Of a DNA stretch of 64,000 bases, positions 5,644 through 61,215 are shown one piece after another. The position numbers were made by a program, and so were the translations under genes. Every line of letters starts with the position of its first letter. Position 1 is the stretch's first letter. A model generated the notes under the pieces. The model was not told the origin of the DNA. It did not search any database and worked only from the letters and a program-made list of their open reading frames with translations. Origin of the DNA: Candidatus Uhrbacteria bacterium (lineage in GTDB: Bacteria > Patescibacteriota > Patescibacteriia > 2-12-FULL-60-25). The stretch lies in NCBI GenBank assembly GCA_018499965.2, contig JAHBAS020000024.1, positions 1 through 64,000 on the forward strand, read 5' to 3'.

Positions 5644-6625
5644 ACTTTTTTATACCTACACGGCATCGCTTCCATACAAACTTCGGAAACAACAAGAAAG
5701 CGAAAAAATGCGCCTTGCAAAGGATCCGAATCATCGAAAACATCCCCATCCCCTCTTGCAACTTCTCAACCGACTCATTCTTTTTGCGAAGATAGCTCAA
5801 TTTCAAACCGATATTCCTGAATGGGAACAATATCAGATCCACGAATGACAAATCCTTTATCGCCGTAAGGATCGTATTCCTCTCACAATAGTAGGCTTTA
5901 AACGGAGACGCCTTGCCGCCGGTTTGTGAATGCAAATGGATCAGCGTCGCCCCCGGGGCAAGATACGCCTTATACCCCAAACCCTTTATGCGAAAACCCA
6001 AATCCAAATCTTCAACATACGCAAAATAGTCCTCATCAAAAACTTCCCCATCCCGCTTATACAAACGCTCCAAAACATCACGTCGATACAGAGGAGCCAC
6101 CCCGCCGGCGGCAAATATCTCGATCTCCCTTGATAATTCCGGAGCCTCTTGGTCCGTTAATCCATACCCCATGGAAATCCCGCCCTTGGCGTTTCTCTGC
6201 AACGCTTTTTCAAAAATCAACCCGGCGTTATTGATGACTTCACCTCCGATAAAATACGCCTTGCTCGAAACCGCTCCGATACTCCCATCGGTTTGCGCAA
6301 CAGCTACAAGCGACGCCAACCAATGCACGTCAACGATGGTATCGTTATTCAAACAAACGATGTAGGCGATATCCCGATCCTTAAAAGCCTCCTTCATGCC
6401 TTCGTTGTTCCCTTTGGCGAACCCTGTATTTTCCTGTAAGGCAATAATTTTCACTTTTTGAAAATGCTCTCGGACATAGGCAACTGATCCATCCCGGGAT
6501 CCGTTATCGACAAAAAACACCTCAAAATTTTGATAACTCTGACGGTATACCGCCGTTAAACAATCTTCTAAAAACCGAAGTCCATTCCAATTCACGATGA
6601 TGATGGCAACCTTTGGATCCGTCAT
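5633..6625 (-). CDS. GT2 family glycosyltransferase (rhamnosyltransferase-like)
   Basis: A 330-aa GT-A enzyme with VAIIIVNWNG at the N-terminus, FFVDNGSRDGS, then CLNNDTIVD for the DxD-like metal site. A downstream EDLDLGFRIKG holds the catalytic-base region typical of WbbL-like rhamnosyltransferases. The C-terminal part has a hydrophobic and a basic stretch consistent with peripheral membrane attachment. It overlaps the GT4 gene upstream by 4 nt and the next GT2 gene by 11 nt, showing a tightly packed operon. Family assignment is firm; rhamnose as the donor is only suggested by resemblance. Confidence 0.83.
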   Translation of the reverse strand: MTDPKVAIIIVNWNGLRFLEDCLTAVYRQSYQNFEVFFVDNGSRDGSVAYVREHFQKVKIIALQENTGFAKGNNEGMKEAFKDRDIAYIVCLNNDTIVDVHWLASLVAVAQTDGSIGAVSSKAYFIGGEVINNAGLIFEKALQRNAKGGISMGYGLTDQEAPELSREIEIFAAGGVAPLYRRDVLERLYKRDGEVFDEDYFAYVEDLDLGFRIKGLGYKAYLAPGATLIHLHSQTGGKASPFKAYYCERNTILTAIKDLSFVDLILFPFRNIGLKLSYLRKKNESVEKLQEGMGMFSMIRILCKAHFFAFLLFPKFVWKRCRVGIKKYDA

Positions 6626-7758
6626 AGCAAGTTCAAATGCTCACGCGAAATACGATCCAAATCAAATCGCTTGATCGTTTCCAAATTCTGTTCCGAAAAA
6701 AACTTTCTGGCCTCGGCATCTTCCCGCATGCGCGACAATGCATCAACCAATTCATCATCCTTGCCATGAGTAATCAAAAAGCCATTCTGTCCTTCTTTTA
6801 CGAAATCGACCTGTCCACCTTCATTGGTTGCGATAATCGGCAAACCCACTTGCATAGCTTCTTGCACCACGATCCCAAACCCCTCGTGCACAGAGGAAAG
6901 GACGAAAACATCGGCAACCGACAAATACTGGAACTTCCGTTCATCCGTAGCCCCGGAAATGATGTGTACACGATCTGAGATCCCGAGAGATTCGGCCAAC
7001 TCATGCAAACGATCACCTTCAGGACCCGAGCCGACGATCAATGCCTGAACCCGCTCATCGGGGATCTTCGCCAAACTACGAATTAAAAAATCAAATCCCT
7101 TTCGAGGAACCAACCTACCAACGCTAACCGTATAAAAGACATCGTTTCGCAAACCCAACTCCTCCCGCGTCTTGGGCGAAAAAGGAAATGATTCATAAGC
7201 CAACGGAATCAAGGCGATTTCCTTTGTATCGTCATAATACTTCTTCACGCCTCCTGCCGTATTCGAAGATTGCGCGGTCACAACATCAGATTGTCGCAAA
7301 ACCCAACGCACGACCGACCGGAAATACCATTTGCGATGCGGAGAAAAACGCTTGGTAGGATCATAGATATCGCCGCCATGCAACGAAAGGATATTCTTGA
7401 TACCGAATCGTTTAGACATCCAAACACCCAAAGGACCCGTGGGAAGTGCAAAATGCGTATTGATGAATTCATACCGATGCAGCTTGCACAGTTCTGCGGA
7501 CTTGCGATACGCCAAAAACGGGAAAGAGAGCAAAGAAGACATTGTCGCGGTCGGCAATTCCTTGCGACCTATCACCCGAACGCGATGGACATGAATACCA
7601 TCAACGACCTCAAACGACTTCAATCCCTCAAAGGAAGAGGTCACGCAGTCCACATGGTATCCCATGCGTAAAAACCCGATCGCAAGCTGCCTCGTGGCAA
7701 CGCCGCCTCCTCCTCCCAGCGGCGGAAACTCGTAATTCAATATCAAAATCCGTTTCAT
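6622..7758 (-). CDS. GT4 family glycosyltransferase
   Basis: A 378-aa GT-B fold enzyme. The N-terminal donor loop is the glycine-rich PPLGGGGGVATRQLA, and the C-terminal domain opens with VSVGRLVPRKGFDFLI. It also has VLSSVHEGFGIVVQEAM, the EX7E motif of GT4 retaining enzymes, and then GLPIIATNEGG. The length is normal for GT4. It begins 3 nt downstream of the epimerase stop and overlaps the following GT2 gene by 4 nt, so it belongs to the same operon. It should transfer a sugar to the growing polysaccharide unit on the cytoplasmic face. Substrate cannot be read from the sequence. Confidence 0.85.
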   Translation of the reverse strand: MKRILILNYEFPPLGGGGGVATRQLAIGFLRMGYHVDCVTSSFEGLKSFEVVDGIHVHRVRVIGRKELPTATMSSLLSFPFLAYRKSAELCKLHRYEFINTHFALPTGPLGVWMSKRFGIKNILSLHGGDIYDPTKRFSPHRKWYFRSVVRWVLRQSDVVTAQSSNTAGGVKKYYDDTKEIALIPLAYESFPFSPKTREELGLRNDVFYTVSVGRLVPRKGFDFLIRSLAKIPDERVQALIVGSGPEGDRLHELAESLGISDRVHIISGATDERKFQYLSVADVFVLSSVHEGFGIVVQEAMQVGLPIIATNEGGQVDFVKEGQNGFLITHGKDDELVDALSRMREDAEARKFFSEQNLETIKRFDLDRISREHLNLL

Positions 7759-7761
7759 ACC

Positions 7762-8742
7762 TTATCTTCCTTCTTTCAACGTTAATAGCCACTCCCTATT
7801 CTCTAAAAACCAATCCGCAAAAACCTGAATCCCCTCCTGCATCCCCACTTTCGGGTCAAACCCCAGCTCCGCGCGTGCCTTTGAAATATCTGCGTAGGTT
7901 TCAACCACATCCCCAGGCTGCATGGGAAGATATTCTTTCTTCGCCGAAACGCCCAAAGCAGCTTCGAGCATATTCACGACATCCTCCAAGCCCACCGGAT
8001 GATCCCCGCCAAGATTATAGACCTCAAAGCCCACATCTTTCTTCGTCATCGCGCCTTTGATTCCACTGACGATATCCGTGATAAACGTGAAGTCACGCTT
8101 CATCTTGCCGTGATTATAAATCGCGATCGATTCGCCCTTGAGCATCTTCGTGGCAAAACGGAACAATGCCATATCCGGACGATAGTACGGACCGTACACC
8201 GTAAAGAAACGCAGGCCGATCATTTCAATGCCATAGAGATGGTGATACGTATGCGCCATGAGCTCGCAAGCCTTTTTCGTGGCAGCATAGAGAGACACCG
8301 GGGAATCGGTCATGTCGCTTTCCGCGAATGGGATTTTCTCGTTCTTCCCATACACGCTCGAAGACGATGCGAACACAACCCGCTTGATCCCATGCAATCG
8401 CGCAGCTTCAAAAACATTCAGCGTGCCAAGCGTATTCGCTCGCTCATAGGCCCACGGATTCACCAACGAATACCGAACGCCCGCTTGCGCCGCAAGATGG
8501 ATGATTTGATCCGGCTTTTCCGTGCCAACGAGATCGCTCAACGCGCTCTCCTCCGCAATGTCGAAGGAATGAAAACGATACTTCGAAAATGCCGACAAGG
8601 CTTCGTTTCGCTTTTGTTTAAGCAACGGATCGTAATAATCATTCAACGAATCCACGCCAATCACCTCATGCCCCTCGGAAAGCAACGTCTCGGCTAGATG
8701 ATAGCCGATGAAACCGGAAGAGCCTGTGAGGAGAATGCGCAT
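7762..8742 (-). CDS. NAD-dependent epimerase, UDP-glucuronate 4-epimerase-like
   Basis: An extended short-chain dehydrogenase of 326 aa. The Rossmann motif is LLTGSSGFIGYHLAE, and the active site has SSSSVYG and YAATK (YxxxK). The signature DSLNDYYDPLLKQKR after the second strand is the hallmark of UDP-glucuronate 4-epimerases such as CapI/LspL. The start chosen is the ATG directly before RILLTGSS. A longer reading would add about 31 residues that overlap the upstream gene and break the fold. Only 1 nt separates it from the upstream transferase stop. It likely supplies UDP-galacturonate to the transferases next door; the precise substrate is an inference. Confidence 0.85.
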   Translation of the reverse strand: MRILLTGSSGFIGYHLAETLLSEGHEVIGVDSLNDYYDPLLKQKRNEALSAFSKYRFHSFDIAEESALSDLVGTEKPDQIIHLAAQAGVRYSLVNPWAYERANTLGTLNVFEAARLHGIKRVVFASSSSVYGKNEKIPFAESDMTDSPVSLYAATKKACELMAHTYHHLYGIEMIGLRFFTVYGPYYRPDMALFRFATKMLKGESIAIYNHGKMKRDFTFITDIVSGIKGAMTKKDVGFEVYNLGGDHPVGLEDVVNMLEAALGVSAKKEYLPMQPGDVVETYADISKARAELGFDPKVGMQEGIQVFADWFLENREWLLTLKEGR

Positions 8743-8743
8743 A

Positions 8744-9784
8744 TCATCCGTTTTCAATGACCTCGCGGACGTCATACGGACGATCCAGCGTAGCACCGAA
8801 ATAAATCTTCGTAAGCATGTCGGAAACCAAACCAAAAACGAGAAGAAGCAAGCCGATGAAAAATCCGAACATCGAAAGGTTGGTCATGGCGCTATTCGAG
8901 AGATCTTGGAAGGCGAAAAACTTTTTATAGAGCGCCATGAAACCCGCGAAGGCCGAAATCGCCATAAGCGCCACACCGGCTCCGCCAAAAAGATGGAGCG
9001 GACGCGCAGCGTACTTGTGCCAAAACCATACGGAGAACATGTCGAGAATCCCTTTCACCCCCCGCTTCCAGTTGTATTTCGTTTTCCCGGTCGTTCGCGC
9101 ACGATGATCAACGACTTCTTCGCCAATACGGAAGCCTTTGATTTTGAGGATCGCGGGAATGAAACGATGCATCTCACCATAGAGGTTCACACGATCAAAG
9201 CACTCGGATCGATAGACCTTGAGCGAACACCCACTATCATGGATCCCGTCCTTGATCAGACGACGCCGCACGAAAGCCGCAGCAAGCGACGCCCAACGCT
9301 TGGACTTCTTGTCCTGACGGTTCTTACGCCATCCGCTCACAACGTCCAAATCATCCTTTTCCAGCTTTGCAATGAGCCGAGGGATGTCCGCAGGGTTATT
9401 TTGCCCATCGCCGTCTAAGGTGGCCAAATAACGCCCACTCGCAGCCTTAATCCCTGCATCCATGGCCGCAGTCTGCCCGAAGTTGCGACGAAGGTTCACG
9501 ATCTTAATGGGACTCAGGGTCTTTAGGACCTCCATGGTCCGATCGGAAGAACCATCGTTGACGAAGATGATTTCGAAAAATGGGGAGTGAGTAGGGGGTA
9601 GAGGGGAGGGTGTTGGAGCATTTTCTTCAATCCCGCCACCCACTACCCTCTCCCCTCTCCCCATCCCCAAACACATGGCTAAAATTTCACGATGCAAATT
9701 TGCAACCGCCCCTTCTTCGTTATACACGGGCACGATGACGGATAAGTAGAGGGATTGAGATGACATAGAAAGATAGGCGCTCAT
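8744..9784 (-). CDS. DPM1/GtrB-like polyprenyl-phosphate glycosyltransferase with in-frame repeat
   Basis: A 346-aa GT2 enzyme of the ArnC/GtrB type. It shows SVIVPVYNEEG, IIFVNDGSSDRT, LDGDGQNNPADI (DxD site), GWRKNRQDKKSKRWAS and DSGCSLKVYR. Two C-terminal transmembrane helices follow (LFGGAGVALMAISAFAG; MFGFFIGLLLLVFGLV). Such enzymes charge undecaprenyl phosphate with a sugar for flipping and use by GT-C transferases, which fits the GT-C gene at the cluster's other end. Between REILAMCL and FFEIIFVNDG lie about 30 extra residues rich in Gly, Pro and Ser, encoded by a palindromic repeat. They fall in a surface loop ahead of the second strand, so the enzyme may still work. A second Met six codons in is an alternative start. 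Confidence 0.85.
   Translation of the reverse strand: MSAYLSMSSQSLYLSVIVPVYNEEGAVANLHREILAMCLGMGRGERVVGGGIEENAPTPSPLPPTHSPFFEIIFVNDGSSDRTMEVLKTLSPIKIVNLRRNFGQTAAMDAGIKAASGRYLATLDGDGQNNPADIPRLIAKLEKDDLDVVSGWRKNRQDKKSKRWASLAAAFVRRRLIKDGIHDSGCSLKVYRSECFDRVNLYGEMHRFIPAILKIKGFRIGEEVVDHRARTTGKTKYNWKRGVKGILDMFSVWFWHKYAARPLHLFGGAGVALMAISAFAGFMALYKKFFAFQDLSNSAMTNLSMFGFFIGLLLLVFGLVSDMLTKIYFGATLDRPYDVREVIENG
9578..9664. repeat. Palindromic repeat inserted in frame in a GT2 gene
   Basis: A G-rich arm at 9582-9612 faces a C-rich arm at 9637-9662, and the two can pair imperfectly. The region adds about 30 codons to an otherwise standard glycosyltransferase without breaking the frame. A similar purine-rich motif lies at 29289-29310. 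Confidence 0.7.
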
Positions 9785-9865
9785 TTATCTCATGGTTGAG
9801 AGAAAAATATCCAAAAAAGCATAGCATGGTGTCTATGAGCCATCAATGGAAAAGGATCGAGGATA

Positions 9866-9904
9866 ACAAAAAATCAGGCGCGTCACGTATCGACACACCT
9901 GATC
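9866..9904 (-). terminator. Intrinsic terminator of the 32-aa peptide gene
   Basis: On the minus strand a 12-bp stem (ATCAGGTGTGTC with GACGCGCCTGAT, two G-U pairs) and a 7-nt loop are followed by TTTTTTG. It lies about 30 nt after the small gene's stop. Confidence 0.8.
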
Positions 9905-9932
9905 CTTGAATACGGCGCACAATCCCTCCAAC

Positions 9933-10031
9933 TCAGAATCTCACCCAGAGCAAGTCGTAGATCGGATGACCTACGCCAAGAAAAGAAAGGACAACTACCT
10001 TCATCGTTGAAAGAACTTTTTTCAGGGTCAT
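9933..10031 (-). CDS. 32-residue hydrophobic peptide (unrecognised)
   Basis: This short frame has a strong ribosome-binding site (AAGGAGG, 4 nt before the ATG). Behind it is a promoter-like TTGATT-17-TACGCT, and a good intrinsic terminator follows, so it forms a complete stand-alone unit. The peptide starts with MTLKKVLSTMK, then a hydrophobic core (VVVLSFLGVG) and ends DLLWVRF. It has a basic N-terminus and one short membrane-like segment, as in small membrane proteins or type-I-toxin-like peptides. I recognise no family and propose no function. The strict signals on both sides are the main reason to call it real. Confidence 0.55.
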   Translation of the reverse strand: MTLKKVLSTMKVVVLSFLGVGHPIYDLLWVRF

Positions 10032-10055
10032 AAAACCTCCTTCGACAGCGGCGCG

Positions 10056-10084
10056 AGCGTAGCAATAATTATGAAGAAAATCAA
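10056..10084 (-). promoter_or_regulatory. Promoter of the 32-aa peptide gene
   Basis: Reading the minus strand, TTGATT and TACGCT are spaced by exactly 17 nt, about 25 nt upstream of the start codon with AAGGAGG between. Both boxes are imperfect. Confidence 0.5.
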
Positions 10085-10095
10085 GATACGGCGCT

Positions 10096-10138
10096 CGGAA
10101 AAACGTAAAGCGACCATCCCCGATTGGGAATGGTCGCC
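10096..10138 (-). terminator. Terminator after the methyltransferase-like gene
   Basis: The stem GCGACCATTCCC / GGGATGGTCGC with a short loop is followed on the minus strand by TTTACGTTTTT. It starts about 23 nt after the upstream gene's stop. Confidence 0.7.
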
Positions 10139-10160
10139 GAATGACGTGCCAATGAGCAAA

Positions 10161-10958
10161 TCAGTCCCTCAACTTGCGAAACACATGCATCGTATCCGAG
10201 CTGCCACGCTTATAAGGCAATGGCCAAAGCAAGGAGCCAGTATCCGTCGGATCCCCAAAAACAGGACCGTTAGGATCGCCGAGCTTAGCCATCGCATACT
10301 TTGCCCGAACGTAGAGGTCGATGTATCGATTGAGCAACGAACCCTCCACGGAAACGTTGTAGCATTGGCTGTACAGATGCAGATTACGCTGAAGCCCAAA
10401 ACCACCCGCGGGGTAGCGATCAACGAGCTCCTGATCCGTTTCCACGGTCTGGAAGTATTCCGCGAGCGCCTTTGATGATTCCTCGAAATCGTCTCCGTTC
10501 GGACTGATTGCCGCAACATGCTGAAACCGTTCATCGCGATGCATATTCGCCGCAAGACCAAACCGCTCCGTACAAATGAAGTATCCACCCAGATTCAATC
10601 GATGACACCCTACATCCATACCAGCAGACGCGTTCATCAAGACAACGATGTCCAAAGGAACCTTGGGATCGTACCGCAAGGCATCCGCATGAACGAATTC
10701 AAGGTCTGGACGAAGAGCGAACGTAGCCACGACATCCGGATCACAGTCCACGTAGATCACGCGCGCCTCTGGAAACACCAAGGATGGTGCGATGTCCGTA
10801 TGGCAACACGGATGATAGATCACCGAGTGACAATCACCGAACTTTTCAGAAAAAAGCCGGAGCTGCTCCGCGTGATGCTGCGCAGGAACGAGATCAACGA
10901 TCCGCTCCTGCTGCTGAATGACTCCGTCTTGTTGAGATGCTGATTGAGAAATGTGCAT
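10161..10958 (-). CDS. SAM-dependent methyltransferase-like protein
   Basis: A 265-aa protein with a Rossmann-like pattern: SVIYHPCCHTDIAPSLVFP, then ARVIYVDCDPDVV (acidic end of strand 2) and FVHADALRYDP (motif II region). This resembles class I methyltransferases, although the usual glycine-rich loop is replaced by YHPCCHTD. The start was chosen at the ATG preceded by AGGAGG with a 9-nt spacer; an upstream in-frame ATG has no such site. It stands alone between a small-peptide unit and a MITE-like element. Substrate is unknown, and the His/Cys-rich loop in place of GxGxG leaves room for a different Rossmann enzyme. Confidence 0.5.
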   Translation of the reverse strand: MHISQSASQQDGVIQQQERIVDLVPAQHHAEQLRLFSEKFGDCHSVIYHPCCHTDIAPSLVFPEARVIYVDCDPDVVATFALRPDLEFVHADALRYDPKVPLDIVVLMNASAGMDVGCHRLNLGGYFICTERFGLAANMHRDERFQHVAAISPNGDDFEESSKALAEYFQTVETDQELVDRYPAGGFGLQRNLHLYSQCYNVSVEGSLLNRYIDLYVRAKYAMAKLGDPNGPVFGDPTDTGSLLWPLPYKRGSSDTMHVFRKLRD

Positions 10959-11020
10959 AACCAAAAACCTCCTGATTAGGATATTCAAGCATAGAAAAGA
11001 AAAGGGGTCAACGCTCTTGG

Positions 11021-11209
11021 AGGAACCCCTAAATCCCCTTATCAGGGGACTTGAGCGCGGTACTAAGTAGGTATCAGATCATGATTCTTAAAAAGAAGTT
11101 CCCCTCCTTTCGGCTTGCCGAAGGGAGGGGTTAGGGGTGGGTTTTGGGATCGGCACGATGCATTCAGCATCGCGCCAAAGTCCCCTGATAAGGGGATTTA
11201 GGGGTTCCT
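11021..11209. mobile_element. MITE-like element, 32-bp perfect terminal inverted repeats
   Basis: Bases 11021-11052 (starting AGGAACCCCTAAATCCCC) recur as an exact reverse complement at 11178-11209. Between them is a second 14-bp palindrome at about 11102-11131. No coding frame lies inside and no clear target duplication is visible. Single arms or shorter pairs of the same family occur at 28752-28797, 43501-43598 and 54048-54081. It sits 1 nt from the alaS stop codon. Confidence 0.7.
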
Positions 11210-11210
11210 T

Positions 11211-13064
11211 CTACTGTCCAATCACGGCTTTAATGCGTCGAACGCCTGCGGATGAGGCTTCTTCTTTTTGGATCTTGAATGATCCGAGCTCTCCGGTATG
11301 CGCGGCATGAGGACCGCCGCAAATTTCTTTACTAAACCAATCCGCATCTTCACCCACCTGATATACGCTCAAACTTGGAAGGTTTTCGTACTTCTCTTTG
11401 AAGAATCCGAGCGCGCCCGAAGCTTCCGCATCTTTGACGCTCATATGCTGACAATTGATCGGAAGATCGCGCTTAATCGCCTCATTCACCAAGTTTTCCA
11501 CTTCTGTGATCTGCTCCGGCGTCATTTTTTCCGGATGCGAAAAATCGAAACGCAAACGTTCCGGAGTGATGTTCGATCCTTTTTGTTGGACATGCGGACC
11601 TAAAACTTTTCGCAATGCCGCGTGAAGCAAGTGCGTGGCCGTATGCAAACGAGCGCTCTCCGCCGAATCATCCTGCAATCCCCCTTTGAACATACCTGCG
11701 GATGCGGTACGTGACAGCTCCTGATGCTTTTCGAACTCAGCCTTAAAAGCATCATGATCAACCACGCCTCCGCGTTCACGGACGATTTCTTCCGTGAGTT
11801 CAAGCGGGAATCCGTACGTAGAATACAGCATGAACGCCTGTTCGCTCGTCATCGCGCCCTTTTCCAAAATCTTCTCAAGCTCTTTGACGCCGTTCGCGAC
11901 CGTCTTGCTGAATTTTTCCTCTTCTTTGACGAATTCCGCAATAATTTCCAAACGCTTCGCCTCAAGTTCATGATAATGCTCACCGAATTGACCGATGACC
12001 ACGTTGGCGATCTGATCACAGAACCGCGTCGAGATTCCGATACGGAGACCTTCGCGAATCGCACGACGGATCAAGCGACGGATCACATAACCCTGTTGGA
12101 CATTCGATGGAACAATGCCATCCGCGATCGCAAACGTCGCGGAACGGATATGATCCGCAATGATACGCATGGAACGATCCACGGATGCATCCGATCCATA
12201 CGTTTTATCGCACAACGATTCAATGCCACGGAACATCACCTGGAACACATCGAGATCGTACACGGTTGAAAACCCGTTCAAGACCGCAGCCGTACGCTCC
12301 AATCCCATGCCCGTATCCACGTTTTGCTTTGGAAGGACTTCAAGCGAACCACCTTCTTCCATGCGGTTGAATTGCATGAAAACGTTGTTCCAAATTTCTA
12401 CGAAACGTCCACAATCGCAGTTCGGATGACAAACCGGACCGAAAGCCGGGGTATGCGGAAGGCCGGTATCGTAAAAAATTTCCGTATCCGGTCCACACAA
12501 TCCCTTCGCCATCGCCCCAGGCCACCAATTCTTCGCTTTTGGATACGTGTAAATTCGAGGACCATCGCCATGCGCCGGTTCATCCTTTTCCGCAACGCCG
12601 ACATCCGCGACAACGCCTTTGACTTCATACTGCGCCCGCCAAATCCCGATGGACGTTTCATCACGAGGCGCGTCATCATCCCCTTCGAACACCGTCACGT
12701 AAATTTTCTTCGGATCGATCCCAAGCCAACGGCTGGACGTCAAAAACTCGAATGACCATGCGATGGATTCTTCCTTGAAATAGTCGCCGAGCGACCAGTT
12801 GCCAAGCATTTCAAAAAACGTCAGATGGCGATTGTCGCCGACTTCGTCGATGTCACCCGTGCGCAAACACTTTTGCGCATCCGCCAACCGCGTCCCCATG
12901 GGATGCGTCTCACCCTTCAGGTACGGCACCAAGGGCTGCATGCCAGCCGTGTTAAAAAGCACGCTCGGATCGTTTTCCGGCAATAACGAAGCCGAAGGGA
13001 TAATGGCATGTCCCTTTTCGGTAAAAAAATCGAGAAATTTCTGGCGAAGTTCGTGTATGGTCAT
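11211..13064 (-). CDS. alaS: Alanyl-tRNA synthetase lacking the C-terminal C-Ala domain
   Basis: This class II synthetase charges tRNA-Ala. The N-terminal catalytic core is intact: LRQKFLDFFTEKGH, NTAGMQPLVPYL, HLTFFEMLGNWS (motif 2 region) and GMGLERTAAVLNG (motif 3 region). The tRNA-recognition helices and an editing domain with HTATHLLHA and CGGPHAAHTGE (the zinc-binding HxxxH...CxxxH set) follow. The protein is 617 aa, while common bacterial AlaRS is about 870 aa. It ends right after the editing domain's GVRRIKAV, so the coiled coil and C-Ala/DHHA1 domain are missing. The stop lies 1 nt from a repeat element, but the cut is at a clean domain border, so a lineage-wide short form is equally likely. 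Its leader carries the shared CTACGGACC motif. Confidence 0.95.
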   Translation of the reverse strand: MTIHELRQKFLDFFTEKGHAIIPSASLLPENDPSVLFNTAGMQPLVPYLKGETHPMGTRLADAQKCLRTGDIDEVGDNRHLTFFEMLGNWSLGDYFKEESIAWSFEFLTSSRWLGIDPKKIYVTVFEGDDDAPRDETSIGIWRAQYEVKGVVADVGVAEKDEPAHGDGPRIYTYPKAKNWWPGAMAKGLCGPDTEIFYDTGLPHTPAFGPVCHPNCDCGRFVEIWNNVFMQFNRMEEGGSLEVLPKQNVDTGMGLERTAAVLNGFSTVYDLDVFQVMFRGIESLCDKTYGSDASVDRSMRIIADHIRSATFAIADGIVPSNVQQGYVIRRLIRRAIREGLRIGISTRFCDQIANVVIGQFGEHYHELEAKRLEIIAEFVKEEEKFSKTVANGVKELEKILEKGAMTSEQAFMLYSTYGFPLELTEEIVRERGGVVDHDAFKAEFEKHQELSRTASAGMFKGGLQDDSAESARLHTATHLLHAALRKVLGPHVQQKGSNITPERLRFDFSHPEKMTPEQITEVENLVNEAIKRDLPINCQHMSVKDAEASGALGFFKEKYENLPSLSVYQVGEDADWFSKEICGGPHAAHTGELGSFKIQKEEASSAGVRRIKAVIGQ

Positions 13065-28751: not shown

Positions 28752-28797
28752 AGTACCGCGCTCAAGTCCCCTGACAAGGGGATTTAGGGGTTCTTGT
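28752..28797. repeat. Single arm of the AGAACCCCTAAATCCCC repeat family
   Basis: It matches the arms at 11021 and 43501, including the conserved inner GAGCGCGGTACT. The stop codon of the transglutaminase-like gene lies inside it (CCCTAAATC), so the repeat supplies the last codons and the stop. Confidence 0.75.
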
Positions 28798-43500: not shown

Positions 43501-43598
43501 AGAACCCCTAAATCCCCTTGTCAGGGGACTTGAGCGCGGTACTGAGGAGATATTTGCATTAAAGTCTCCCCTGACAAGGGGAGATTTAGAGGGGTTCT
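43501..43598. mobile_element. Short inverted-repeat element of the AGAACCCCTAAATCCCC family
   Basis: The left arm at 43501-43545 carries GAGCGCGGTACT, and the right arm at 43561-43598 is its reverse complement with a few single-base insertions. ATCT occurs near both ends, which may or may not be a target duplication. The right end touches the stop codon of the second DUF192 gene. Confidence 0.65.
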
Positions 43599-50566: not shown

Positions 50567-51033
50567 GTTAGCGAGTTGGCGGGTTTGCGTGTTTACGAGT
50601 TTACGAGTTTAAAAACAACATCTTATTATGCAGATTCGTTCTTACGACGAAATCCAATCTTGGAAAAAAGGTATCGAGCTTACAAAAAAGATCTATACCC
50701 TAACTTCAAATCCCCCTTTATCAAAAGATTGGTCACTATGCGATCAGATGAGACGAGCGGCCGTTTCAATAAGTTCAAATATTGCAGAAGGTTTTGAGCG
50801 AAATAATAACAACGAGTTCACTCGATATCTCGTGATATCAAAAGGTTCCGCAGGCGAACTACGCACGCAGATCATCATCGCATACCACGTTGGATATCTT
50901 TCGGAATCACAATATCTTCAAGTCCTGCAAGAAATAAACCATATTATGATCATGCTCGGATCATTTATTACCTACTTAAAAAAACTCAAAGCATCAAAAA
51001 CCCGCAAACACGCAAACCCACCAACTCGCTAAC
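50567..51033 (+). mobile_element. S23-gene unit bounded by 36-bp inverted repeats
   Basis: Bases 50567-50602 and the reverse complement of 50998-51033 agree at 33 of 36 positions (starting GTTAGCGAGTTGG and running into GGGTTTGCGTGTTT). They enclose one complete gene. The right repeat supplies the stop codon of uvrC (CGTTAGCGAG) and the C-terminal residues of the enclosed gene. Related solo sequences lie at about 52335-52370 and 61148-61180. No clear target duplication is seen. Confidence 0.7.
50628..51032 (+). CDS. S23/TIGR02436-type four-helix-bundle protein
   Basis: A 134-aa all-helical protein. It shows SYDEIQSWKKGIELTKKIYT, LCDQMRRAAVSISSNIAEGF, FTRYLVISKGSAGELRTQI and YLQVLQEINHIMIMLGSFIT. 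These are the hallmarks of the family first seen in 23S rRNA intervening sequences and related to the Avd protein of diversity-generating retroelements; it binds nucleic acids through a positively charged pore. The last residues (KTRKHANPPTR) are encoded by the flanking repeat. It is inserted between mraZ's promoter region and uvrC on the opposite strand. Confidence 0.9.
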   Translation: MQIRSYDEIQSWKKGIELTKKIYTLTSNPPLSKDWSLCDQMRRAAVSISSNIAEGFERNNNNEFTRYLVISKGSAGELRTQIIIAYHVGYLSESQYLQVLQEINHIMIMLGSFITYLKKLKASKTRKHANPPTR

Positions 51034-52282
51034 GTAATAATCCTCTTACTTTCCGATGATACGTGATCGCGAACCGATGCGCTTCGTCGCGTAATTGCGT
51101 TAAGAGCGTAAGATGCGGCTCGCAGGTTTTGCAAATATCTTCTTGACCCTGCTCGCATACGAGATCCGTTCGCTTGCGATCGCGGCCTTTGACCATGCCG
51201 ATCACCGGAACCGGAATGTTCATTTCTTTGAGCACGTGGAGCGCCATGCGAACCTGACCGATGCCGCCATCAATGAGTACGAGATCCGGCAAACGCCATT
51301 CCGGATGACGAAATCGACGGATCATGACTTCGCGAATCGACGCATAATCATCTGATCCGATCACGGTTTTGATCCGAAACTTTCGATACTCGGCTTTCGC
51401 AGGCGCACCCTGCTCAAAAACCACCATGGACGCAACCGTAGACGTTCCAGATACATGCGAGATGTCATACCCTTCGACTCGCCCGAAGATATTTACGCCA
51501 CCCGAGGGCGAAGGAACCTCGCCCCTACGAGCTTCCTCATCTTCTCGTTTCATCGAAGCGACATCACGGATGTGTTCGAGCGCAAAAATCTTATTTCGTA
51601 ATACAGCCGCTTCTTCAAATTGCTTCGCTTTGGACGCCTTTAACATTTGACGACGATACGACGAGATAATCCCCTCTTTTTTTCCTTCGAAGAACTTGAT
51701 CAAATCACGAATGGTTTTTTGATACGTTTTCTTTTCCGCAACACCGATGCACACGCCAGGACAAAGTTTGAGATGATGGTAAAAACACGCGCGCCGCTGA
51801 CCGGGCGTACAGGTGGTCCATGGAAAAATCGGTCGGATCATTTCCAATGCCGCACGAACCGATCGCGGAGACGTGTACGGACCGAACACGGCCTTATAAA
51901 CCTTTCCCGCATCCATTCCGAGATCCGATCCACGAATGAACAACGGACGTGGAAAATCCTCTTTTGTGATGACGAGATACAAAAAACTCCGATTGTCCTT
52001 GTCTTTGATGTTGTACTTCGGCCAATAGTGCTTAATGAGATTCGCTTCCAGGATCAAGGCTTCGACCACCGTAGGACGTTCAATGTAGTCAATCGTACGA
52101 ATCAAACTCACCATTTCTTCAATACGTCCGTCATGCGCCTTTTGAAAATACGAAGACACCCGCCGCTTTAACGAGGTCGCTTTGCCCACGTAGATGATCG
52201 TCCCCTTTGCGTCCTTCATCAAATAGACGCCCGGAACATCCGGCAATTCATCGTTTTTCACCTTGACCTTCGAAGGGATCAT
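51029..52282 (-). CDS. uvrC: UvrC-type excinuclease subunit lacking the HhH domain
   Basis: A 417-aa nuclease of nucleotide excision repair. It has the GIY-YIG domain (PGVYLMKDAKGTIIYVGKAT), the central Cys-rich region, the UVR motif (LKASKAKQFEEAAVLRNKIF) and the RNase H-like 5' nuclease (YDISHVSGTSTVASMVVFEQ; LVLIDGGIGQ; EAHRFAITYHR). Standard UvrC is about 600 aa; the C-terminal (HhH)2 DNA-binding part is absent. The last codon and stop come from the S23 unit's inverted repeat, so insertion may have cut the gene, although no HhH remnant is seen beyond it. Residues near REDEEARRGEVPSPSGG are encoded by a palindromic repeat. A TGCTAAGCT box lies 6 nt before the ATG. Confidence 0.92.
   Translation of the reverse strand: MIPSKVKVKNDELPDVPGVYLMKDAKGTIIYVGKATSLKRRVSSYFQKAHDGRIEEMVSLIRTIDYIERPTVVEALILEANLIKHYWPKYNIKDKDNRSFLYLVITKEDFPRPLFIRGSDLGMDAGKVYKAVFGPYTSPRSVRAALEMIRPIFPWTTCTPGQRRACFYHHLKLCPGVCIGVAEKKTYQKTIRDLIKFFEGKKEGIISSYRRQMLKASKAKQFEEAAVLRNKIFALEHIRDVASMKREDEEARRGEVPSPSGGVNIFGRVEGYDISHVSGTSTVASMVVFEQGAPAKAEYRKFRIKTVIGSDDYASIREVMIRRFRHPEWRLPDLVLIDGGIGQVRMALHVLKEMNIPVPVIGMVKGRDRKRTDLVCEQGQEDICKTCEPHLTLLTQLRDEAHRFAITYHRKVRGLLR
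51500..51532. repeat. REP-like palindrome in frame inside uvrC
   Basis: GAGGGCGAAGGAACCTCGCC followed by CCTAC is the relative of the repeats at 34447 and 37420 (GTAGGGGCGAGGTTCC on the minus strand). It falls in the linker between the UVR motif and the RNase H-like domain and keeps the frame. Confidence 0.65.
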
Positions 52283-52297: not shown

Positions 52298-52329
52298 CAA
52301 GATGAGCGTTAGACGAGAGACGCCTCTAT

Positions 52330-52372
52330 TCACACTCGCAAACCCATCAGCCCGCAAACCCGCCAACGAGCC
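52330..52372. repeat. Degenerate solo copy of the S23-unit terminal repeat
   Basis: CTCGCAAACCCATCAGCCCG followed by CAAACCCGCCAACGAG resembles the right repeat at 50998-51033. No gene is associated with it. Confidence 0.5.
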
Positions 52373-52447
52373 CTCGACACTTTCCCCGCAAAATGCTTTG
52401 ATACTGCCCAGAACCTTTGACATGCGAACCGCAGAAAGCGAGGCAGC

Positions 52448-54047: not shown

Positions 54048-54081
54048 GGGCTCTTGTCAGGGGACTTAAGCGCGGTACCGA
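54048..54081. repeat. Partial arm of the AGAACCCCTAAATCCCC repeat family
   Basis: CTCTTGTCAGGGGACTTAAG followed by CGCGGTACCGAGAG matches the inner half of the arms at 11021 and 43501. It lies 6 nt beyond the uvrA stop; the outer half is replaced by GGGCGGG-type sequence of another repeat family. Confidence 0.65.
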
Positions 54082-54086
54082 GAGAG

Positions 54087-61101: not shown

Positions 61102-61145
61102 ACCCAGAAATCATACGCGGAACGCAAAAAATCGTCTATGCCCAT

Positions 61146-61182
61146 TTCAAAAACCCGCAAACTCGCCAACACGCTAACGCGC
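61146..61182. repeat. Solo copy of the S23-unit terminal repeat
   Basis: AAAAACCCGCAAACTCGCCA followed by ACACGCTAACGCGCCAAC resembles the repeat at 50998-51033. It has no adjacent S23 gene, so it looks like a remnant or a target-like site. Confidence 0.55.
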
Positions 61183-61215
61183 CAACCTAGAAACGAGTAA
61201 ACCCCCGCCCGCCCC

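Follow-up and report, generated by a model that had tools for sequence, protein, structure and literature searches.

An 85-nt palindromic element built of degenerate heptamer arrays lies in frame, at positions 9580-9664 (minus strand), within a gene for a polyprenyl-phosphate sugar transferase in the window, the 64,000-nucleotide stretch of DNA that was analysed. The element most probably belongs to a family of short palindromic repeats, selfish or passive, that is specific to this species and was retained where the reading frame remained open and the protein loop was tolerant. The host is a Patescibacterium of the class ABY1, which also holds Falkowbacteria, Kuenenbacteria and Kerfeldbacteria, as judged by homologue sequences recovered identically in two separate scans.

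The gene that bears the insert occupies positions 8744-9784 on the minus strand, and its reading frame runs unbroken through 346 amino acids. Its product is assigned to the GT2 family (ArnC/GtrB-like) by its open reading frame, by Pfam and NCBIfam profiles and by its structural relatives: it matches Pfam Glycos_transf_2 (PF00535) at 8.9e-30, and the nearest solved structures are the ArnC-type undecaprenyl-phosphate sugar transferases 9bhc and 8vxh and the GtrB-like sll0501 protein 5eke. In a 33-sequence alignment all 38 invariant columns are retained, including D77-G-S and the D124xD126 motif; both the frame and the catalytic motifs are kept, as the original prediction had claimed. The prediction of an in-frame palindromic insert in this enzyme was likewise borne out by the extent of the element and by its folding, described below.

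The element consists of two inverted arms and a spacer. Arm 1 (9580-9613) displays degenerate G-rich heptamers on the plus strand and is accordingly C-rich on the gene strand, whereas arm 2 (9639-9664, minus strand) carries the G-rich heptamers on the gene strand itself and reads GGGGAGA GGGGAGA GGGTAGT GGG; the spacer spans 9614-9638. The outer ends of this imperfect palindrome are ATGGGGAG...CTCCCCAT, and its inner arms (9596-9613 and 9645-9662, 31 nt apart) are 83% complementary over 18 nt. As DNA, the element folds at −20.8 kcal/mol compared to a mean of −13.5 for shuffled sequences (z −3.0, with none of the 200 shuffles as good), and as gene-strand RNA it folds with a z of −3.3 relative to shuffles. 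The insert also contains one G-quadruplex-type motif. An Rfam search of 7500-12000 returned no match.

The closest orthologue that we found, L010 of genome G030, shares 78% protein identity with the GT2 enzyme and reads ...EILAMC-QKLNQP-FEIIF..., with 6 residues at the position where the GT2 protein has 31 between EILAMC and FEIIF, a net gain of 25 amino acids or 75 nt. About 30 residues rich in Gly, Pro and Ser had been predicted here; the length agrees, and the composition proves to be Gly/Arg-rich in the first part and Pro/Ser/Thr-rich thereafter (a peptide that spans the insert is, for example, VVGGGIEENAPTPSPLPPTHSPFFEIIFVNDGSSDR). Every other sequence in the 33-sequence alignment has a gap of 25 columns, or one column more, at this place. 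The spacing from the P..NE motif of the first strand to (D/N)DGS is 57 residues in the GT2 protein, compared to at most 39 in the 112 homologues, out of 113 from many phyla, that could be scored; in 92 of them it is exactly 32. The short loop expected of related GT2 enzymes is thus what they have, and the homologue alignment, set beforehand as a check, gave the same answer: an insert or an equivalent segment of equal length was looked for among the 113 homologues, one of them unscorable, and was not found. At the DNA level, the site measures about 97 nt here and about 22 nt in the diverged L010, with no clear target duplication.

In the GT-A fold, the loop that joins helix 1 to strand 2 faces away from the active site, on the other side of the sheet. 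The insert is likely to occupy this very loop, and the enzyme, with a loop of about 25 extra residues, has presumably kept its function. The assembler might instead have joined a repeat into the GT2 gene; several arrays do lie at contig ends, some of them followed by Nextera-adapter-like sequence, and the repeats evidently cause the assembler difficulty. The GT2 copy, however, is internal to a long contig, where the two halves of the gene flank the insert in a single open frame, and we regard such an artefact as extremely improbable.

The repeat unit is a degenerate 7-nt word, GGGKAGW, arrays of which are dispersed over the genome at about 45 places, mostly intergenic. In many copies a spacer separates a G-rich array from a C-rich one, so that the two arrays are inverted, and autocorrelation over 14 full copies peaks at lag 7, 25 standard deviations above shuffles, followed by lag 14. 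The GT2 element has 39 BLAST matches within its own genome. The best of these, on contig C16 (2046-2126), is 78% identical over 86 nt (E 2e-13) and aligns along the full length of the element; its spacer differs by 3 nt, and the match between the two spacers scores 10 against a shuffled mean of 5.3 (p 0.004). This alignment identifies the two as sister copies. As the sister copy is near full length, spacer included, the heptamer element was likely dispersed by copying. The genome has 47 exact occurrences of the 17-mer GGGKAGWGGGKAGWGGG, compared to 2 occurrences of its reversed control, 0-1 per genome in 40 other genomes of the same family and 0-3 per genome in a class sample of 379 other genomes (Patescibacteria/ABY1). 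Given 47 exact hits here against 0-3 elsewhere, the family appears almost private to this species among the genomes compared.

The copies vary in spacer and in heptamer number, and common descent is clear for just one sister copy, that on C16. Such differences in unit number and spacer between sites, together with the strong period of 7, are also what would be expected if each array were born in place, by slippage of G-rich 7-nt words and templated inversion at the hairpin, without ever having been a mobile copy; an array with a single arm in a variable linker of the RlmD gene, described below, points the same way. Against such an origin, the C16 copy reproduces the full 85-nt arrangement, spacer and all, and the arrays are largely confined to a single genome, where they are scattered over about 45 places, which leaves birth in place unlikely.

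The reading that we favour, a dispersed repeat, would proceed as follows. A short non-autonomous repeat would have been copied or moved into the helix 1–strand 2 loop of the GT2 gene, where it would have been retained because it offered a stop-free register and a net length of 75 nt in a loop tolerant of flexible extra residues. With no obvious benefit to the host, its spread would be selfish or passive, and the length of the arrays would change by slippage. We infer the movement into the GT2 gene, the tolerance and the neutrality alike. Two points count against this reading: (i) the arrays in RlmD and LeuRS occupy loops that are of variable length anyway, and (ii) the nearest orthologue, at 78% protein identity, is too diverged to provide an exact empty site; a scan of genome contigs did find homologues, none of them from a near strain.

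The arrays fall into 46 clusters: 27 are outside ORFs, 10 extend across an ORF end and the remaining 9 are, at face value, internal. Across the 14 full copies, no more than 26 of the 84 registers are free of stops, and a length that is a multiple of three arises by chance one time in three; we therefore estimate that about one in ten random insertions into genes would keep the frame, and this low chance fits the bias of the arrays towards intergenic sites. Among proteins of recognised families with homologues on both sides of the array, only three carry a truly internal one: the GT2 enzyme, leucyl-tRNA synthetase (LeuRS) and the rRNA methyltransferase RlmD, the last identified by TIGR00479 above its cut-off. 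The LeuRS array (C15:65147-65210) is in frame and reads EDREAP-VKGRGERGEGSGDTLPTTHYPLPSAR-MAYKTTTTINWCPSC. That of RlmD (C20:16674-16700), also in frame, is a single arm that fills a variable linker and reads MDFVS-TTPHSPLPSTLL-DLYCG. At the ends of genes, heptamer arrays supply RuvC with its C-terminal tail and stop codon, and TsaE and RecR with N-terminal parts. Other arrays that looked internal, ahead of AsnB, PfkB, EF-P and a kinase (names read off the sequences rather than from profiles), were set aside as probable 5′ regions of genes that likely start downstream.

This distribution also bears on whether the insert could be a contingency tract, in which each 7-nt unit added or dropped would shift the frame and so toggle the glycosyltransferase. 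A 7-nt change is indeed a frameshift, and the heptamers do lie in a glycosyltransferase gene near glycan-like ORFs (6622-7758 and 7762-8835, which are situated beside the GT2 gene and resemble glycan genes). The element, however, has only about 2.4 perfect tandem units (GGGGAGAGGGGAGAGGG), not enough to sustain frequent slippage; arrays are present as well in LeuRS and RlmD, whose silencing would probably kill or harm the cell, and the family is mostly intergenic. Phase variation is thus very improbable.

The best-documented palindromes of the protein-coding kind are those of Rickettsia and Wolbachia and, among REPs, those of a restricted range of phyla. Like the palindromic elements of Rickettsia (RPEs) and the protein-coding palindromes of Wolbachia, the heptamer family comprises short dispersed palindromes of hairpin type that are present in many genomic copies, both intergenic and in frame in conserved genes. 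RPEs, however, are described as sequence families of 105-146 bp from Rickettsia (PMC2229807), and by these descriptions the present element, which is 85 nt long, is made of 7-nt tandem units and resides in a Patescibacterium, stands apart. The predicted resemblance to RPEs therefore holds for a dispersed palindrome that is in frame, but not for membership, which we reject on account of the ABY1 host, a length of 85 nt that falls below the 105-146 bp range, and the heptamer arrays in two inverted arms. That an enzyme decorated with an RPE can remain active is illustrated by guanylate kinase (reviewed in PMC2229807).

A second comparison is with the GTAG/CGTC REPs, which, in the sections of PMC3733652 cited here, are tagged stem-loops of 20-40 bp with many copies near gene 3′ ends; intragenic REP dimers encode 20-30 amino acids, and different REPs can occupy nearly the same position in orthologues, as in recB of Xanthomonas. 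As far as these sections describe them, the likeness extends to in-frame copies of 20-30 amino acids in coding regions (GT2 and LeuRS, shorter in RlmD), to many copies near gene 3′ ends, to a RAYT-like gene in the genome, and, akin to recB, to different repeats at about the same site of orthologues, here RlmD. Unlike the REPs of those sections, the heptamer copies are GGGKAGW arrays with GTAG inside the units and no single end tag, and the carriers of GTAG or CGTC repeats named there include no Patescibacteria. By the defining features tested, the heptamer family works by a mode like that of RPEs and intragenic REPs and is a member of neither.

The RAYT-like gene raises the question of the mover. 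The heptamer elements could be GTAG-type REPs mobilised by this transposase, a reading compatible with our preferred one of a dispersed repeat, and GGGTAG and GGGGAG do include the GTAG/GGAG tetranucleotides. The gene (L105:2511-3080, on contig G000:C21) encodes a relative of REP-associated tyrosine transposases, with PF01797 above its cut-off and NCBIfam REP_Tyr_transpos at 62.7 bits against a cut-off of 80. The repeats at and in the gene, however, are of another type (CGTAGGGGCGGG...CCCGCCCCTACG): a perfect palindrome, CGTAGGGGCGGGTCT/AGACCCGCCCCTACG (GSAVGAGLRPAPTRQ), lies in frame within it, and a portion of this repeat recurs immediately beyond its end, both being of the GTAGGGGCGGG type. 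Unlike a REPtron of the heptamer family, the gene thus has GGGGCGGG-type REPs in and beside it, and no heptamer array was found nearby; nor are the arrays single tagged stem-loops. We consider mobilisation by this transposase quite unlikely.

Cyanobacterial STRRs are heptanucleotide arrays of the CCCCAGT type, found also within rnpB. Likened by description rather than by sequence, the two families share degenerate 7-nt tandem units that are dispersed over one genome, some of them within genes; the present arrays differ in often forming inverted pairs, in being in frame in protein genes and in belonging to another phylum.

The LeuRS and RlmD loops that hold heptamer arrays in this genome also vary in relatives of the same family. 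The RlmD of G009 (L224) has ATTCCCGCGAAGGCGGGAAT in frame at the loop before DLYCG, from a ATTCCCGC/GCGGGAAT palindrome with 11 sites in that genome, and the RlmD of G014 (L219) has TCCCTCTCCTTACGAAGGAGAGGGA at the loop before DLYCG, from a CCCTCTCCTT/AAGGAGAGGG palindrome with 14 sites. These inserts indicate that unrelated palindromic families entered the same RlmD loop independently, three families in three relatives. In the LeuRS of G009 (L230), the second palindrome is also present in frame, as CCCTCTCCTTACGAAGGAGAGGG, and encodes PHPNPLLRKERGS before KFYGL, at a site different from that used in the present genome. It is conceivable, and we propose it tentatively, that in this family of Patescibacteria certain surface loops of housekeeping proteins are entered time and again by unrelated palindromic repeats, which would make repeat insertion a main contributor to the length and sequence of loops; the UvrC of the window, described below, carries yet another repeat type. 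Peptide words encoded by the repeats, when searched for, gave chance matches only, and a literature search on palindromic repeats in Patescibacteria gave nothing on point.

That a streamlined Patescibacterium has in-frame repeats in three enzymes (one a synthetase, one an rRNA methyltransferase, one a glycosyltransferase) suggests that short selfish repeats can add peptides to proteins even in very small genomes, and it extends to bacteria of a very different kind what had been described above all in Rickettsia. The RlmD loop, with its three unrelated repeat families in three relatives, lends itself to a direct test of whether loops grow recurrently by repeat insertion.

Repeats of other families were seen alongside these. 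Within the window, a UvrC homologue (51029-52282, minus strand) contains an in-frame GGGCGA...CTCGCCC palindrome at 51505-51533, a REP of the CGTAGGGGCG type whose encoded peptide, EARRGEVPSPS, falls in the stretch that links the UVR motif to the RNase H domain. A second family of short-unit arrays, with 8-nt units near CGCNAACN, is present at 50567-50613, 50986-51036, 52329-52378 and 61139-61197, one pair being inverted. Genome G002 has two LeuRS genes (L190 and L207) on short contigs, with different short tandem repeats in the same loop, which may reflect a strain mixture or paralogues. The contig ends L041 (G000:C43) and G000:C8 carry all or the first part of CTGTCTCTTATACACATCT, a Nextera-type adapter that remained in the assembly beside heptamer arrays. 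Finally, a dispersed palindromic repeat around CCCCTTATCAGGGG, with the flank GACTTGAGCGCGGTACTAAG, occurs at 11023-11074, 11166-11207, 28752-28793, 43502-43553 and 54053-54082.
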